From positions 12,524,001 to 12,588,000 of the forward strand of contig NC_026660.2 of assembly GCF_000004075.3 (NCBI RefSeq): a stretch of DNA of 64,000 nt, read 5' to 3'. Source of the DNA: Cucumis sativus. Its lineage: Eukaryota > Streptophyta > Magnoliopsida > Cucurbitales > Cucurbitaceae. Positions 35,130 to 55,988 of this stretch are shown in pieces. The notes beneath the pieces are model-generated. The model did no database searches and was not told the DNA's origin. It saw only the letters and a program-made list of their open reading frames with translations. Each line of letters begins with the position of its first letter. Position 1 is the stretch's first letter. The translations under genes and the position numbers were made by a program.

Positions 35130-37150
35130 ATGAAGTGCTTCCACTTCACCAATGGCGAGAGAAGGGATGATGAAGATGGGGTTGCTTCTAGAACTTCAAA
35201 GGTCTCTTGGGCTCGCTCGCTTAGTATGGCTTCTAGCACGTTTGATACTAGACGCTCCGAGTTTGATTCTGACTATTCCAGGGATTTTTCTGACTCGATT
35301 GGGTTTTATGAGTTTTTGACTCACCGTAGGGCGAATGATTTGCGGGTTTTTTCTTTTTCTGAGTTGAGATCGGCCACTCGTGGCTTTAGTAGAGCGTTGT
35401 TGATTGGTGAGGGAGGTTTTGGATGTGTGTTTAAAGGAGTTGTTAATGGTGATTCTAATTCCAAGTCGGATTTGAAGATGGAGGTTGCTGTTAAACAGCT
35501 CAATCGCAATGGCTTCCAGGCATGCCTTTCTATTTCTTCTTTTTACTCTTCTTCAGTGATTGGAATCTCTTGTTCCATTGAATGAATGAATGCTATTTTT
35601 GAATCTGTTTTGTTCTTCTATGGTATTTGAATGAATTTAAACCCCAAATTGGGAATGGATTGATGGGGAGGGATTCAAATCTGATTGAATTTTCAAACAA
35701 ATTCTAGTATTCAGGGGCATAAGGAGTGGATCAATGAGGTGAACTTTCTGGGAGTGGTGAAGCATCCAAATCTTGTGAAATTGGTTGGATATTGTGCTGA
35801 AGATGATGAAAGGGGAATGCAAAGGCTTTTGGTTTATGAGCTTATGCGTAACAGGAGCTTGGAAGATCATCTTTTGGTTCGAGTATCTCCACCATTGTCA
35901 TGGTTGGCCAGGCTTAAAATTGCTCAGGATGCAGCTCGTGGCCTTGCATATCTGCACGAAGAAATGGATTTTCAGGTACAAAATTAAAATCATATCCTGC
36001 TTTGTTGCTTGAAATTGACAACAATATGAGTGTTGGTTCTTTGATTCTATTTTCATCATTCCATCCTTGATGTTTCAGATGTTATATTGTCTTTCCATGT
36101 GAAGTAAATATAGATTTCTTTGTCTTATAGGAAGTATGTGTGTGGTTGATAGTTTCTTGTGGCTTTCATATTTAAGTGACTCGGATTTGTTTTTATTTGA
36201 TGCAGCTAATTTTTCGCGATTTAAAAGCTTCAAATATCCTGCTAGATGAAGAATTTAATGCAAAGCTTTCGGATTTTGGACTCGCTAGACAGGGTCCTCC
36301 AGAAGGAATCAGCCACGTGTCAACATCGGTATGTCTCGAATTTGCTTGCATCGACTTGCTAAATGCTTAAACATCAATCCAAACTGATCTTAACCTTACT
36401 GGATTGGAAAGAGTTCTAGCATTATACCTTATCCCTTTAGTATGTTCTTTTGGATTTTAGCTTCTAAATAGGCATATGTCATGATTGTTTTTAAGCCATT
36501 AACCCATGTCTTGTAGTAATTTTTAAGGACAAAAGATGTTTCCTTGTAATGTGATGACAATTTACTTGTCTTTGAAGGTTGTAGGCACAATAGGCTATGC
36601 AGCTCCAGAGTATGTTCAGACTGGTAGGCTGACTGCAAAGAGCGACGTGTGGAGCTTTGGAGTTGTTCTTTACGAACTCATCACAGGTAGACGAGCCGTG
36701 GAGAGAAACCTACCACGGAATGAGCAGAAGCTTTTGGAATGGATTAAACCATACATCTCAGATCCTAAGAAATTCCACCTCATTGTCGACCCACGGCTTG
36801 AAGGAGAATGCAATATCAAGTCAGCTCAGAAACTTGCATCACTGGCTAACAAATGCCTGATGAAGCAGCCTAAGAATCGCCCAAAAATGAGTGAAGTCGT
36901 TGAGTTTCTTGGCAACATCATCAGTGAATCATGTCAAGATATCGAAACAGCTGTTCAACCCGTCGATAGAACAGTGGAAACAAAGGAAGAAAGTGTAGAG
37001 GAGGCTGAAGTCGAACCTGCCACTACAAGACATAGAAATAGTCATCTAAAGAAGGTTTTTGATTTCAAAGATATGGTGAGTTTAAGAAATAGATCTTTTG
37101 GGAAGTTAGATTGGAGAAATTGGACACCTGGGTTAGTAAGAACTTGGTGA
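35130..37150 (+). CDS. Receptor-like cytoplasmic kinase, RLCK-VII (PBL19/PCRK-like)
   Basis: Exons 35130-35519, 35715-35975, 36206-36328 and 36578-37150, all phase 0, give 448 residues. The start MKCFHF is typical of the PCRK/PBL19 branch, which lacks Gly2 for myristoylation but keeps Cys3. The kinase domain starts near residue 74 ([18 protein letters not shown]) with loop GEGGFGCV, lysine in EVAVKQL, catalytic [21 protein letters not shown], activation segment [18 protein letters not shown] and KSDVWSFG; it should be an active RD kinase. The tail ends WTPGLVRTW. Relatives act below pattern-recognition receptors at the plasma membrane. The first intron (35520-35714) starts with GC instead of GT: CAG|GCATGC. 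An Arabidopsis RLCK (At2g28940) sits between APK1B and EXPA6, matching this position. Exact orthologue unsettled. Confidence 0.92.
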
Positions 37151-40442: not shown

Positions 40443-42609
40443 CTATGTATAGAGAGCTGAAACTGGAGGCCGGGGGTAAGCTTGAGCACTGTTTGGATTA
40501 CGGGCATCATCAGCACTATGCCTTCGGGCACGGCGATTATTGGTTGAGTTCCTGTTGCTAGTAGGCAACGTGGAATCCTGTAGTTGCTCTAGTTCTTTTA
40601 CAACATCATTCATGATTGGTCTTAGTTTGGGATTAATAGATATGCATCTTAGCGCAAGCATAGATGCCTTATAGGCTCCATCCAATGAATATTGGCCCTC
40701 AAGACGACTATCGATGATTCGAAAAATCTTACGTTTATTAGCAAGGTAAGGCTTTGCCCATTCCACAAGATTGTGTTCTCTAGCTGGTCGATTCTTGTCA
40801 ATTGCTCTCCTTCCACATAATATTTCTAGTAGGACAACTCCGAAACTATACACATCACTCCAAGTAGTTAGATGACCTACAGCAAGTTAGAAAGAAAATA
40901 GACTATCAAATTTAAGATATCAATTGGCAATCCAAAATTTATACTTTTCTTTATCATGAAATAATGCAAAATCAAATTGCAATTAATCTTGACAATGTGA
41001 CAGCAGGAGTTTCTGTTTCTGTAGAATAACCTGTAGCCAAATATTCCGGGGCTGCATATCCATAAGTCCCCATCACCCTGGTCGAGACGTGGCTTTTATC
41101 ACCCGTTGGACCGTCTTTGGCCAGCCCAAAATCTGAGAGTTTGGCATTGTATTTCTGAATGCAGAAGAAAACAATGTTATAGGCTGACTTCAAAACAAAA
41201 GAGCAATCAACTACTATGGAAGTTACCACTCACATATCATACGGAAGAGAGCACAATTTTGACAATTACTTACAGAGTCTAGTAGGATATTCGACGTCTT
41301 GAAGTCACGGTAGATCACCTTCCTTTCATCACTGTGGAGAAAGGCCAGCCCTTTTGCAGCACCAAGTGCAACCTTTAAACGTAGGCTCCAAGAAAGAGGT
41401 TGGAAATAGGATCCCCCTAGAACATTATTATGCAAAGATCTAAAATTAATGAAGTCCTTTTCCTCAAGTGGAATCAAAAGGCTGCCGATAAGAAAATACT
41501 TACTTCGAAACAAATGGTTTTCCAAGCTCCCACGAGGCATGAATTCGTAAACGAGCATACGGTGTTCATCCTCCAAGCAATAGCCCACCAACCTCACAAG
41601 GTGACAGTGAGAAAGCTGGCCTAGAAAATTCACTTCAGCCTATGCGGAAATGAAACATGAGATAAGTTGATCTGTAGAGCATAAACTGACAAGCAGATAG
41701 TTATACTAAGTGCATCACTTATATGCTGAGAAAAGCTAATATGGAAAAGTAAACATGAATTGCAAAAATGAGACATCTCGGCATGTGATTTCAAGGAGCA
41801 AACTCACCAACCATTCTCTGTGCCCTTGAAAACCATCTTGGTTAAGCCTTTTGACTGCAATAACCATTCCAGTGCCAGGTTTGGCTGCAGCAAAGGAATG
41901 CTCATCAATCCAACCCTTGAAAACAGAACCAAAACCACCTTCTCCTACCACGCTATCGGGACGAAAGTTCCTGGTGGCTGCTTTAAGCTCTGTGAAACTG
42001 AAGCTCTTCAAATTGGAGGACTGCAAAATTTCGCCTTCAGTTCGTGGAGTTGGTGGCACTGAGAGCAAATTGATCTTGCTATTCGTACTACCAATATCGT
42101 TTCCATCAGTACTCACACCATTAGAATTCACTCCTGCACAAAGAAATCACAACCTCTAAACACTCGCTGTTGTTTAATCAAATAAATTAAACCGAGACTG
42201 TCTCTCAAGTGTGTACTTTTTACAAAAGCTGTTTCAAAATATTTTCAATTTAAGCAAACATCTTGATGTCTGGAAATTCAATGAAAGGAAGGTATTCTTG
42301 CATATCATACAATTGTTTTCTCAATGTTTCACAACACTTAGCGAAACATCCATGATCCACCTTTCACTTCAAACTAGCCAATTGAACCATATAAAGTTCA
42401 TCATTTCATCTGTTTTGCAGACATGAGATAAGCTTGGTAAACGTGAAGACATCTCACTACATAAATCTAAAATTCTACAAGACTTAAACAACAAGAGACC
42501 CAAACAATTCCACCAAATTGTTTCATTAGCTAAGTAAAGAAAGCCTTCTTCAAGTACCTGTATTACATGAGTTCTCAGCTTTAATTCTGGTACTTAAGCA
42601 GACACCCAT
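40443..42609 (-). CDS. RLCK-VII protein kinase, APK1A/PBL9-PBL10-like
   Basis: Six exons on the minus strand (42609-42558, 42133-41808, 41639-41504, 41416-41274, 41154-41031, 40876-40443) give 404 residues. MGVCLS carries Gly2 (myristoylation) and Cys4 (palmitoylation) signals, implying plasma-membrane attachment. [20 protein letters not shown] leads into the intact loop [23 protein letters not shown], catalytic [35 protein letters not shown] and [11 protein letters not shown]. The tail ends [10 protein letters not shown]. All catalytic residues are present, so an active kinase is expected. One oddity is [10 protein letters not shown] where relatives have TTKSDVY. It is the canonical member of a duplicated pair with the gene at 48725-51072; exons 1 and 3-5 have the same lengths. 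Arabidopsis APK1A (At1g07570) lies close to the PPR gene At1g07590, as here. Confidence 0.94.
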
Positions 42610-45645: not shown

Positions 45646-47756
45646 TTAGCTTTGAAACTGCTCAGAAAGTTTGATCAAACTGTAGGTTTCGGAGTCAGGC
45701 CTAGCTCCTCCTACGATCATCCTTCTCAAGAGATTTGGATTATGAATCTTGGCCTTCACATAAGCTTTGATCAAGGTGTTGTAAACGAATGTGTACCTCG
45801 TATACTTTGCTTCTTTGAGTTCCTTGAATAGCTTTTCAGTATTTTCAATGTCTCCTCTCTCTGCCAGAATCTCAATCATTGAAAGAGTGGTTTCCAACCA
45901 TGGGGTTGACTTCCTAACTATCTTGGTGCTGCTTGTTGTATTTGATCCCAGATCTAGTGTTTTCAAGGCTTCCTCCACCAAACCAGCTTTCAAGCAACCG
46001 AAAGCCAGATGTCGAAAGGTTATGGCATTTGGTTTGCACCCATTTGCTTCGATTTTCCTAAATATTTCTGTTGCCTTTTTAATCAACCCATGTCTGCAAT
46101 AGACAGATAAAATCGAATTGAATTGATCGGTGGCTTTAATTCCTCTTTTGGTTTTCATCTCTAGCCAGAGCTCTTCAGCGCGGCTTAGTAAACCAATTCT
46201 GCCAAATGCTTCAATTGCCAGTATAAAACTTTTAGACGGGATGTGGGGAAATCCTTGTATGATACCCCAAGTCCTTTCTAGCTCTTTCTCCTTGTTCAAA
46301 TAGCCGTACAAGATGATTAGAACATCATAGGTCGACCAATTATTCCCAGCGATTGATTTTTCTAAAGCCTCAACGTAGGCTTCAACCACGGTATACAACT
46401 TTGCCACAGCATGTGCAGTTGCTACTATGCAGTATGACACCTCATTTGGTTCAACTTTAGCTCGTCTCATGTCACTAAATACCCTCATCAACCCTTCAAT
46501 GTTGTGTTCATTGGCTTCTATTTTCATAAGAATGTTATATGTAGAAACATGCAATGGCACTTTATCAGCCTTCATCTGGGAAAGAATTTTTGGGATAATT
46601 TTCCTACGACGAAAAGATGAATGGAGTATAATAAGGCGGTTAAAAACTAAGTGTGATATGCTATGGCCAACTTCCCTCATTTTTCTCATGTAAGCTAGTG
46701 AAAGTCTAATTGCTCCCTTATCTAAACATGCAATCACAAGATTGTTGAAGAGCAACTCTCCTTGAAATTCCACAGGGATATTAGAAAAGAGCTTCTCACC
46801 TTGTGATATGCCATGGTGTTTGATTGTAAATTCCAAAAGATAGGAGTAGTCCAATTCATTTATCCGATATGGTTTCTCCCTAATCACCCACTCCATAACC
46901 TGCCGAGAACAGAAGACAGATCCAAATTAACAAAGGGACTAATCCAAATTAATGACAATGGCCCTGTTATCTACTCAAGTAACAAGGGCAATTCTTCATT
47001 ACTTTTTAGATTATAAAGCAAGCATGGTGTAGCCATGAACTAAAAGCACACAACATTATACTAAGAAACAGAGTAATCAAGAAAAAGAAAATGCCTTCTT
47101 ATATGCACTGTGAAGTGATAACATCTAATGGAAGTTAAGAGTATAGAATCTCTAGCTTCACATCCCCATAGTCTTTACTCATCCTCGTTTGTGGAGAAGA
47201 TATTGCAACCAAATTCACACTTTCTGCAACTTTCAGCTTCTTAATGATTTAAGAAAATAGTTCAAATTTCAATTTTTCTTTGTTTTCTTCTCGATTTTAT
47301 CCTTAAAGACACAAGAAAAAGCTAACCAGTACAGCCAAATTTACTAAGGTTCAAATTAGAATTCACAACATCTAAGAAAACATAAAACGAAAACGGAGCT
47401 ATAAAGAGGGAGATGGAGATAGGAACCTCGAGTGCCCGCTTGTTCCTTTCAAGCTTCCTAAGGCGATTAATGGCATGAAAAATGTCGCCTCGATGAATTG
47501 GAAAACCATCGCCCATCCAACTCCTGAAAGCATACCCAACCAATTCTCCCTTCGGTATTCTCTCAATTCTCAAAGACAAGCATTTGGGTTCCTCCAATTC
47601 AGACTCTAAAACGTTCGGCGACAAGTTGCCGGGAATTTGAGTGCATAGAAAGTTGAAACGGAAGGGGATTGTACTGACCGCTGAAGGAGTGCTGGAAACT
47701 GTTCGGCGAAATGCTTGAATGAGCCTATACCCAGAGAAAAAGCTCCCCGTTGGCAT
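45646..47756 (-). CDS. P-class pentatricopeptide repeat protein, probably mitochondrial (At1g07590-like)
   Basis: Two exons, 47756-47427 and 46899-45646, join in phase 0 (ALE|VMEWVIREKP) to give 527 residues. The first about 40 residues are rich in Arg, Ser and Phe and lack acidic residues (MPTGSFFSGYRLIQAFRRTV), as in a mitochondrial presequence. The rest is a series of degenerate PPR helices, for example STYNILMKIEANEHNIEGLM from about residue 229, DQFNSILSVYCRHGLIKKAT with CKPNAITF, and YTFVYNTLIKAYVKAK near the end with ARPDSETYS. No E, DYW or SMR domain follows, so it is P-class, which usually binds organellar RNA to stabilise or process it. The RNA target is unknown. It sits between the two APK1A-like kinases; in Arabidopsis At1g07590 lies near APK1A. 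Confidence 0.9.
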
Positions 47757-48724: not shown

Positions 48725-51072
48725 TTATGTATAATCAGGGGAAACAGCACGAGCACTACGATGAGTATTGGCATCGTCAGCACTACGTCTGCGAGCCAGG
48801 CGGTTTTGTTTTGAATTTCTGTTGATATTAATGGATGTTGGATCTTGCAGCTGTTCTAGTTCTTTTACAAGCTCGTGCATGCTTGGTCTACACTTCGGCT
48901 CAATGGACAGGCATTGCAGTGTCAGACTCGATAGCTTATAGGCTGCATCCAATGAGTATTGGCCTTCGAGACGGTTGTCAATTATTCGAGCAGTCTTCCG
49001 TTGGTTTGCAAGGTGGGGTCTTGCCCATTCGATTAGGTTGTGTTCTCTAAATGGTCGATTTTTGTCAACGGCTCTTCTTCCGGATAATATTTCCAATAGA
49101 ATGACTCCAAAACTATAAACATCACTTGATGTGGTTGCCTGACCTACAGTAAGTGAAAGGCCAAAGTGATCAACATAAGGTAATTAATAGAATCCTTGTT
49201 TGGTCGAAAGAATATAACAAGCTAAGTTAACCAGCATGAGTTGGCCTCGTGATAAGAAGGTCATGGGTTCAATACATGGTGGCCAACTACCTAAGAATTT
49301 TCTTACAAGTTTTCTTGACACCAAATGTTGTAGGGTAATGTGGGTTGTCCCGTGAGATTTGAGATTAGTCGAGGTGTGCAAACATTAGTAATTGGGGGAA
49401 GGAGAAAGTTAGATATTGATTTAGTTGGTTTAGGACTTGAGTGATCTAAAGAAAGGGAAGGTCCAAATTACTTGGTTTATCTGGTGGCTCTGTTATAGAT
49501 TCGATCAAAATATTACCTGCGACAAGATATTCTGGAGCTGCATACGAGGTACTCGGAGTCCTGATAGAGATGTTATTTTTGCTGCCCGTTGCTCCTGTGT
49601 CTTTGGAAAACCCAAGATCAGAGAGTTTGGCATTGTAATCCTGAGGATAAAAGAAATCGTGGCTTGACGTCCATCTTACAGAAAAGTAAACAAATAACTG
49701 AAGGAGCTAGATCCCTTCCATGATGCCATTTTTACCATAGCCACAAAGCTTTATTTTCACCAAGGAGTAAAGGACTTACAGAATCAAGCAAAATATTTGA
49801 AGTCCTCAAGTCACGGTAGATCACTTTTCTTTCATCACTGTGGAGAAAGGCGAGCCCTTTTGCAGCACCAAGTGCAACCTTCAAACGGAGGCCCCAAGAA
49901 AGAGGTTGAAAATAGGAACCCCCTGCAATGACCAACTTCAGTCTCGATCACTAAATATTTTTAAATGTTCTTATTGAATTGCGTCGAAGGATAGAGCAAA
50001 CTCACGAAGGAACAGATGATTTTCTAAACTTCCTCGAGGCATGAATTCAGATACGAGGAGCCGTTGCTCATCGTCTATGCAATAGCCAATCAATTTCACA
50101 AGGTGAGAATGAACAAGTTGGCCCAGAAGATTCACTTCAGCCTAATTGATAAAAGAAACATGAGTGTATCTGTGCAGCATAGAATGACAAATTTGTTTAA
50201 CAAATAAGTCACTATAGTACACAGCCATCTGATGCTAAGAGAGGTCAATATGAGTAGAAAAAGACAAAGAAATCAGGTATGATAATGAGACATCTCTGCA
50301 ATTAATCTCAAAGAGATGACTCACAAACCACTCTCTGTGATCTTGAGAGCTCTCTTGGTTAAGCCTTTTGACAGCAATACTCATTCCAGTTCCAGGCTTG
50401 GTAGCAGTAAATGAATGCTCATCAATCCAGCCCTTGAAAACTGAACCAGAACCAGGTTCTCCCAGAACACTATCAGGACAAAAGTTCCGTGTTGCCTCTT
50501 TTAGCTCTTCATAAGAGAAGCTCTTCAAATTGGACTGAGAGATTTCACCCTCGCTCCGAGGGGCTGGCAGCACCGAAGCCAATGAGAATTTGCTACTTGC
50601 ACTACCATTATCCTTTCCATTATTGCTATCACTATCATCTTTTGAATTCTTCACCCCTGCACAAACAAATACACGCCCTGTAATGAACTAATGGCCATTC
50701 ACTTGACTCAAAAGCCTCAATAGTTTACGTTTAAATCAGAGGCGAGACTACTTCCGTAGTTCCGTTCAATCAAAGATAATAATTCTGGAAATTCATAAAA
50801 GAAAGAACTCGTGCACATTGTAAGATCGATATCAAAAGGCAGGTTTATAAAGGGCATTCCTCCACCCCTTCTTCAGACTTGAAACTAACTTGCTGAAAGC
50901 AGAACTTCAGTAAATAAATAAGAAATCTAAAAATAATTGGGAAATGACAAAAAAAAGAAGAAAAAACCCAAAAACTTCCACCATACTGTCTCATTAGCAA
51001 GAAAGTAAGCCTTGTAATACCTGTATTATCATCACTTTCAGATATAGGTTTTGCACTTAAGCAGATGCCCAT
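48725..51072 (-). CDS. Diverged APK1A-like RLCK-VII copy, possible pseudokinase
   Basis: Six exons (51072-51021, 50656-50325, 50141-50006, 49922-49780, 49640-49517, 49143-48725) give an uninterrupted 401-residue protein. MGICLSA keeps the myristoylation/palmitoylation signal. Exons 1 and 3-5 match the gene at 40443-42609 in length (52, 136, 143, 124) and every phase is the same, so the two arose by duplication. Kinase motifs are altered: the glycine loop is GEPGSGSV instead of GEGGFGSV, the catalytic loop is [10 protein letters not shown] (Lys replaced by Arg), DFG is DLG in SDLGFSKD, and the activation segment is rebuilt as [15 protein letters not shown], lacking MGTYGY. ATP-site Lys (IAVKRL), alphaC Glu and catalytic Asp remain. 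It may be a weak kinase or a membrane-bound pseudokinase. The open frame argues against a dead gene. Confidence 0.88.
49231..49384 (+). mobile_element. SINE-like insertion (Au-SINE type) in kinase intron 5
   Basis: Inside the intron 49144-49516, and opposite to the gene, is a tRNA-like head: an A-box-like AGTTGGCCTCGTG near 49239 and a B-box-like GGGTTCAATAC at 49265-49275. It is followed by a tail TGGGTTGTCCCGTGAGATTT and ATTAGTCGAGGTGTGCAAAC. The tail closely recalls the 3' part of plant Au SINEs (…GTGAGATTAGTCGAGGTGCGCG…). Target-site duplications and exact ends could not be settled. Family assignment is from memory. Confidence 0.6.
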
Positions 51073-53488: not shown

Positions 53489-55861
<2,373 letters not shown>

Positions 55862-55988
55862 TTTCCCTCGGATTTCTGGGAGCAGTGAGCACGAAGACGA
55901 CAAAGTTAAAAACCCCGAAGTTGACGATAATAATTTCAAAATGTGAGAACCGAAGACCAAGAAATCCTATATCCACACACACCTCCTC

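Follow-up and report, generated by a model that had tools for sequence, protein, structure and literature searches.

An old, eroded tandem duplicate of an APK1A/BIK1-type RLCK-VII kinase gene in Cucumis sativus

What is a duplicated kinase gene that keeps its reading frame while its catalytic motifs erode? This question is raised by a locus of Cucumis sativus (contig NC_026660.2, positions 12,524,001 to 12,588,000; this whole stretch of 64,000 nucleotides is referred to here as the window), where a gene at window positions 51072-48725 on the minus strand lies near a canonical relative, its twin. The candidate is an intact six-exon gene of the receptor-like cytoplasmic kinase family RLCK-VII, with an open frame of 401 residues (Table 1). 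Its five introns are all GT-AG, with phases 1, 0, 1, 0, 1, and none of its splice sites, start, stop or frame is disrupted. With introns present, a 401-codon frame open and GT-AG splice sites, it carries no mark of a processed or disrupted pseudogene. A homology-driven spliced aligner returned the same model except for the exon 2 acceptor, which it placed at 50638 (in frame, 18 bases shorter); we used 50656 because its TTTGTGCAG matches the acceptor of the twin. The protein begins MGICLS, with Gly2, Cys4 and Ser6, a type of start read as an N-terminal myristoylation/palmitoylation signal. A first-pass annotation of this DNA had reported the 401-residue frame, the MGICLS start and the sharing of all intron phases with a twin about 6 kb away, and the gene models bear out each of these; the gap between twin (42609) and candidate (48725) is ∼6.1 kb.

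Twin and candidate agree in the position and phase of all five introns, and both have an acylation-type N terminus. Their pairwise synonymous distance (dS) was 0.70 to 0.97 and their nonsynonymous distance (dN) 0.184 to 0.189 across four methods. They were sisters (support, 84/74), with branch lengths of 0.28 for the candidate and 0.052 for the twin, in a protein tree that took in 13 of the 18 sequences of our motif alignment and in which 6 of the 10 inner branches were weakly supported. In Pfam, both proteins matched kinase families alone (PF07714 and PF00069), and the best PDB matches of the candidate were BIK1 (5tos, E = 1.4e-130), then PBL2 and a RIPK. By closest kinase domain and by exon structure, the candidate falls in the BIK1/APK1A-like clade of RLCK-VII, which we take to be subgroup VII-8. 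BIK1, the twin and two further cucumber loci of the APK1A/BIK1 type (L039 and L051) share with it a TEGEI-type extension, a GWIDE...KPGTG insert and the kinase fold. The gene is an old copy, arisen in tandem, of an RLCK-VII kinase of the APK1A/BIK1 type.

Blast comparison of the two gene regions also found non-coding matches, including one at the beginning of intron 1. The first ∼70 bases of this intron (window positions 50954-51020 in the candidate and 42486-42557 in the twin) are 76% alike with exon 1 counted in. This likeness seems high given a coding dS near 0.9 and may reflect a shared intronic element; the stretch was not recognizable in the aligned introns of L039, L050 and L051.

Cucumber relatives were obtained by searching the genome assembly (226.6 Mb, 88 contigs) with the twin and two exon-sized pieces of L039, which returned further RLCK genes among the matches listed. 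Fifteen fetched loci were modelled with the homology-driven spliced aligner, and the comparisons drew on their kinase-domain columns alone. L039 and L051 gave clean six-exon models with an acylation-type start and all five intron phases of the candidate/twin pair. In L042 and L052 the phases are as in the pair and the ends are doubtful; in L049 and L050 the first five phases are as in the pair and extra 3′ exons are doubtful. L048 was modelled too, but its kinase looked unlike those of RLCK-VII and it was left out of the counts that follow.

When the candidate was aligned with 17 other kinases, it alone departed from the consensus at 12 of 79 columns invariant in those 17. The same count for each of the others gave 0 to 6 private changes in 67 to 73 columns (next highest, L049 with 6/73; twin, 0/67), and the erosion of the candidate therefore exceeds chance. 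Most of its private changes sit in the glycine loop, catalytic loop, DFG motif and activation segment. Those in the N-terminal lobe are G>P and F>S in the glycine loop, G>D before alpha-C and Y>S in the hinge. Further on are K>R in RDxK, F>L in DFG with L>F next to it, P>A, V>I and two G>S changes in the activation and P+1 segments; L>A follows APE in the C-lobe. GEPGSG, RDLR, DLG, VSEF and a P+1 loop one residue short are unique to the candidate among the 18 sequences. These comparisons agree with the first-pass annotation on GEPGSG, DLG and the loss of MGTYGY. Its reading of RDLR for RDFK stands in part: the sequence is real and K>R is notable, but RDF>RDL is ordinary, since L043, L044, L046 and L047 likewise read RDL(K).

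Compared with all 17 others, the activation segment is one residue longer after KD and one residue shorter before YAAPEY. Aligned as codons, or as DNA in MAFFT, the gene shows a 3-base insertion at the first place and a 3-base deletion ahead of the Tyr at the second; when gaps were made cheap, a pairwise aligner instead opened several that were not triplets in the P+1 stretch leading up to that Tyr. A compensated frameshift as the source of the new segment is not favored, as in-frame 3-base indels suffice, although the cheap-gap alignment leaves a short one possible. In a motif census of 53 loci (95 distinct kinase-like stretches), the second Gly of the glycine loop was present in 46/46, the RDxK Lys in 42/42 and the DFG Phe in 44/44, and two residues separated the GT-type Thr from the Tyr in 43/43; the census has supporting value, as it counted solely stretches fitting each search expression and leans to canonical motifs because loci were picked as best matches to intact kinases.

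Against these changes stand the residues that the candidate keeps: the beta3 Lys, alpha-C Glu, YRD Asp, catalytic-loop Asn, DLG Asp, APE and DVYSFG. The classical criterion for a pseudokinase is loss of the VAIK Lys, HRD Asp or DFG Asp (PMC4718504; this and all other papers are cited for excerpts of their text). The candidate retains all three (in AVK, YRD and DLG), and the label of pseudokinase given by the first-pass annotation fails in the strict sense because none of the defining residues is lost. The same source counts Gly52 among six conserved nucleotide-binding or catalytic residues, and of these six the candidate has lost one, its Gly52 equivalent being Pro. Together with Arg for the RDxK Lys, Leu for the DFG Phe and the shortened P+1 loop, this gives it the residue losses of an atypical or activity-poor kinase. 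The first-pass annotation's further suggestion of a targeted loss of catalytic features is supported in that erosion centers on features of catalysis and activation; the annotation did not mention the residues that are kept, nor the hinge Y>S, the L>F after DLG, P>A, G>D or the C-lobe L>A.

To describe how the gene has evolved, we estimated the ratio of nonsynonymous to synonymous substitution rates (dN/dS) from three tree versions (4 taxa and 295 codons; 6 taxa and 292 codons in two topologies). On the candidate branch dN/dS was 0.312 to 0.329 versus 0.067 to 0.073 in the background (likelihood-ratio test [LRT] statistic for the difference, 27.7 to 29.7), and it lay below 1 (LRT, 8.6 to 9.8; p = 0.0018 to 0.0034); on the twin branch it was 0.056 to 0.062. 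Because the outgroup branches have large synonymous distances (about 0.8 to 2), these absolute values are rough. The first-pass annotation had made a dN/dS near 1 one half of a condition that would refute it, and the branch average of ∼0.32 is not near 1: evolution of the candidate is relaxed, not neutral on branch average. When the glycine loop and the catalytic loop to APE were treated as a core, dN/dS on the candidate branch was 0.52 in the core (background, 0.022) and 0.26 in the framework (background, 0.080; below 1, p = 0.001), and the two differed (p = 0.014); these region tests are optimistic because the split was drawn after seeing where the changes fall. Derived residues, scored where L039 and L051 agree and in regions chosen once the alignment had been seen, were enriched from the catalytic loop to APE (13/42 versus 22/182 elsewhere; Fisher p = 0.0045) and depleted from alpha-D to YRD (2/43 versus 33/181 elsewhere; p = 0.033). 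Outside both regions the candidate has 20/139, and the twin has 5/224 overall. In simulations of neutral drift on the coding sequence of the twin (substitutions only, indels left out), no replicate of 400 remained stop-free at 0.4 changes per site, corresponding to the whole of the candidate's branch. Together, the selection tests and the simulation indicate that the gene was constrained for most of its life.

Given these data, we tentatively favor, at somewhat less than even confidence, a reading of the candidate as an activity-poor, membrane-anchored docking paralogue that would work, if it works, by binding partners rather than by phosphorylation. After duplication, the frame, splice sites, acylation-type N terminus and helical alpha-D/alpha-E face would have been retained, while the ATP-gripping loop, catalytic lysine, activation segment and P+1 loop would no longer have been tightly constrained. 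The predicted product is an RLCK that would be anchored at the membrane and transfer little or no phosphate. If functional, it might act as a brake or scaffold, taking up docking sites on receptor kinases or substrates alongside active relatives. Weak phosphotransfer is suggested because the second glycine is lost and the P+1 loop altered; a folded, binding-competent protein is suggested because the nucleotide, Mg and fold residues are kept and the alpha-D/alpha-E face is nearly untouched. What the data show is the gene structure, the moderately supported sister relation, the clustering of private changes and a relaxed but, on average, non-neutral evolution; anchoring, low activity, partner binding and any role in immunity are predictions. 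Several points weigh on the other side. Residual activity is possible because the three strict catalytic residues, the alpha-C Glu and the loop Asn are kept. Support for the sister relation is moderate (84/74), and of the two branches the candidate's is the longer. Core dN/dS is indistinguishable from 1 (p = 0.07), and the branch dN/dS, a time average, may be compatible with a recent loss of function.

The last two points bear directly on a serious rival, that of a dying gene, which was constrained for most of its history, lost its function recently and now drifts, its frame surviving by chance. A dN/dS raised four- to fivefold and a core compatible with neutrality are what such a gene would show, and a short period of neutral drift often preserves the frame: 10/400 simulated sequences were stop-free at 0.10 changes per site (a quarter of the branch) and 176/400 at 0.02 (1/20). 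However, the changes are unevenly spread, with the alpha-D/alpha-E block hardly touched; splice sites, start, stop and frame are intact; and in-frame indels are enough to align the activation segment at codon level, although a gappier alternative exists. We consider this explanation unlikely.

Alternatively, the candidate could be a still-active kinase, its ATP and Mg contacts kept and its regulation or choice of substrate altered through the activation and P+1 loops. The retained beta3 Lys, alpha-C Glu, YRD Asp, Asn and DLG Asp fit this explanation, and some active kinases outside the family have Arg in place of the RDxK Lys or read DLG instead of DFG. It is made doubtful by the P+1 segment, which lacks one residue that all 17 aligned relatives have, and by Pro at the second glycine of GxGxxG, one of the six conserved residues in the excerpt of PMC4718504.

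Finally, the first-pass annotation had raised a decoy, scaffold or inhibitor. A scaffold or inhibitor may be right; the decoy we considered as bait for an effector guarded by a nucleotide-binding leucine-rich repeat receptor (NLR), as PBS1 is with RPS5 or PBL2 with ZAR1-RKS1. No such guard was identified, though none was looked for. Effectors target members of RLCK-VII, and some members serve as decoys (PMC12170986, in excerpt); the alpha-D to YRD block, which is conserved, is close to the interaction domain reported for XopAC in the excerpted PMC3739749, a comparison made at the level of regions. In PBS1 and PBL2, RLCK-VII relatives of immune kinases like the candidate, effectors modify the activation loop or its vicinity (excerpts of PMC12170986, PMC8150971 and PMC8269361); in the candidate this loop is changed. 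The twin's GDKSHVSTR has become GSKNNISIR, in which the Ser equivalent to BIK1 S236 is kept and the T237 equivalent is Ile; as excerpted from PMC8150971, BIK1 S236A and T237A mutants were reported unmodified by AvrAC. At the AvrPphB site the triplet is GDK in the twin, GDL in BIK1 and GDN in PBL2, and their shared Asp is Ser in the candidate. That review describes GDK as moderately conserved and necessary but not sufficient for AvrPphB, and BIK1 as a reported substrate (PMC8150971, in excerpt); since BIK1 reads GDL, only the shared Asp is informative at this site. Thus, the effector-modified loop residues of the PBS1/PBL2 type are not preserved as a set. A decoy should keep its bait, and residues on which two known effectors (AvrPphB and AvrAC) act are among those lost, which weakens the idea and leaves it improbable.

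That loss of the AvrPphB site could instead mean escape from such effectors is speculation. A long-shot variant of the docking paralogue is a tamper-proof brake or platform in receptor-kinase complexes: a membrane-anchored RLCK-VII of the BIK1/APK1A clade in which catalysis would have been swapped for docking, the docking face retained and the effector-modified loop changed, such that RLCK-modifying effectors could not switch it off.

The candidate is a real, old and eroded RLCK-VII tandem copy, a kind of gene already known. The BRASSIKINs (BKN) of Brassicaceae are likewise tandem RLCK-VII paralogues with degraded motifs and retained N-terminal acylation sites, and their inactivity was predicted from sequence (PMC6907349, in excerpt). 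Unlike them, the candidate is APK1A/BIK1-like and keeps the three key residues; where BRASSIKINs have lost the glycine loop and the key motifs VAIK, HRD and DFG, its glycine loop is altered rather than lost and the key residues of the other three motifs remain. In a tree without CST, PBL31 or BKN sequences, its position is that of sister to the twin. MAZ and CARK7 also keep most features of active kinases and had no activity in vitro; they differ in belonging to RLCK-VIII and in their named oddity, DFN for DFG (PMC11981891, in excerpt). Among the matches listed in the literature searched by title and abstract start, we found no publication on the candidate gene. Should the gene prove to be expressed and conserved, it would offer a natural paralogue that has lost catalysis within the BIK1/APK1A clade, adjoining its canonical twin, and would let one ask what such kinases do without phosphorylation and whether escape from effector modification keeps inactive copies.

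Table 1. Window positions of the candidate gene's exons and of its canonical twin
Feature	Position	Strand	Details
Candidate exon 1	51021..51072	-	N-terminus MGICLS at 51055-51072; donor GTATTA; phase 1
Candidate exon 2	50325..50656	-	N-terminal extension; GEPGSG glycine loop 50445-50462; kept beta3 AVK lysine 50358-50375
Candidate exon 2 splice signals	50325..50656	-	Acceptor CAG, donor GTGAGT
Candidate exon 3	50006..50141	-	Kept alpha-C Glu (AEVNLL); hinge VSEF replaces VYEF, 50043-50057
Candidate exon 4	49780..49922	-	Conserved alpha-D/alpha-E block; catalytic loop YRDLRTSN 49795-49818
Candidate exon 5	49517..49640	-	DLG 49602-49622; GSKNNISIR 49560-49586; following segment 49527-49559
Candidate exon 6	48725..49143	-	C-lobe, basic tail, stop
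Canonical twin, 404 aa	40443..42609	-	Exons 42609-42558, 42133-41808, 41639-41504, 41416-41274, 41154-41031, 40876-40443

Elsewhere in the genome, L049 and L039 form a second tandem BIK1/APK1A-like pair on one strand of contig C5 (∼21.814 and 21.823 Mb, ∼9 kb apart). Catalytic motifs are intact in both, and L049 has its own odd changes at 6/73 invariant columns. We rejected this pair as the counterpart, by an older duplication, of the candidate/twin pair on contig C6: L049 groups with BIK1 and L050 (support, 89/91), not with the candidate. Since its catalytic motifs are intact, the erosion is not common to it, and a local duplication fits better.

Three other genes or open stretches were seen in the window. 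A third RLCK-VII-type gene lies at 35130-37150 (+), with canonical GEGGFG, RDLK and DFG and the start MKCFHF; we presume that it resembles the PCRK/PBL19 group. Between twin and candidate, a 426-codon stop-to-stop open stretch (45646-46926, minus strand) presumably resembles a pentatricopeptide-repeat protein. Just upstream of the candidate, at about 53600-55880 (-), is a gene that by its motifs we take to be triosephosphate-isomerase-like.
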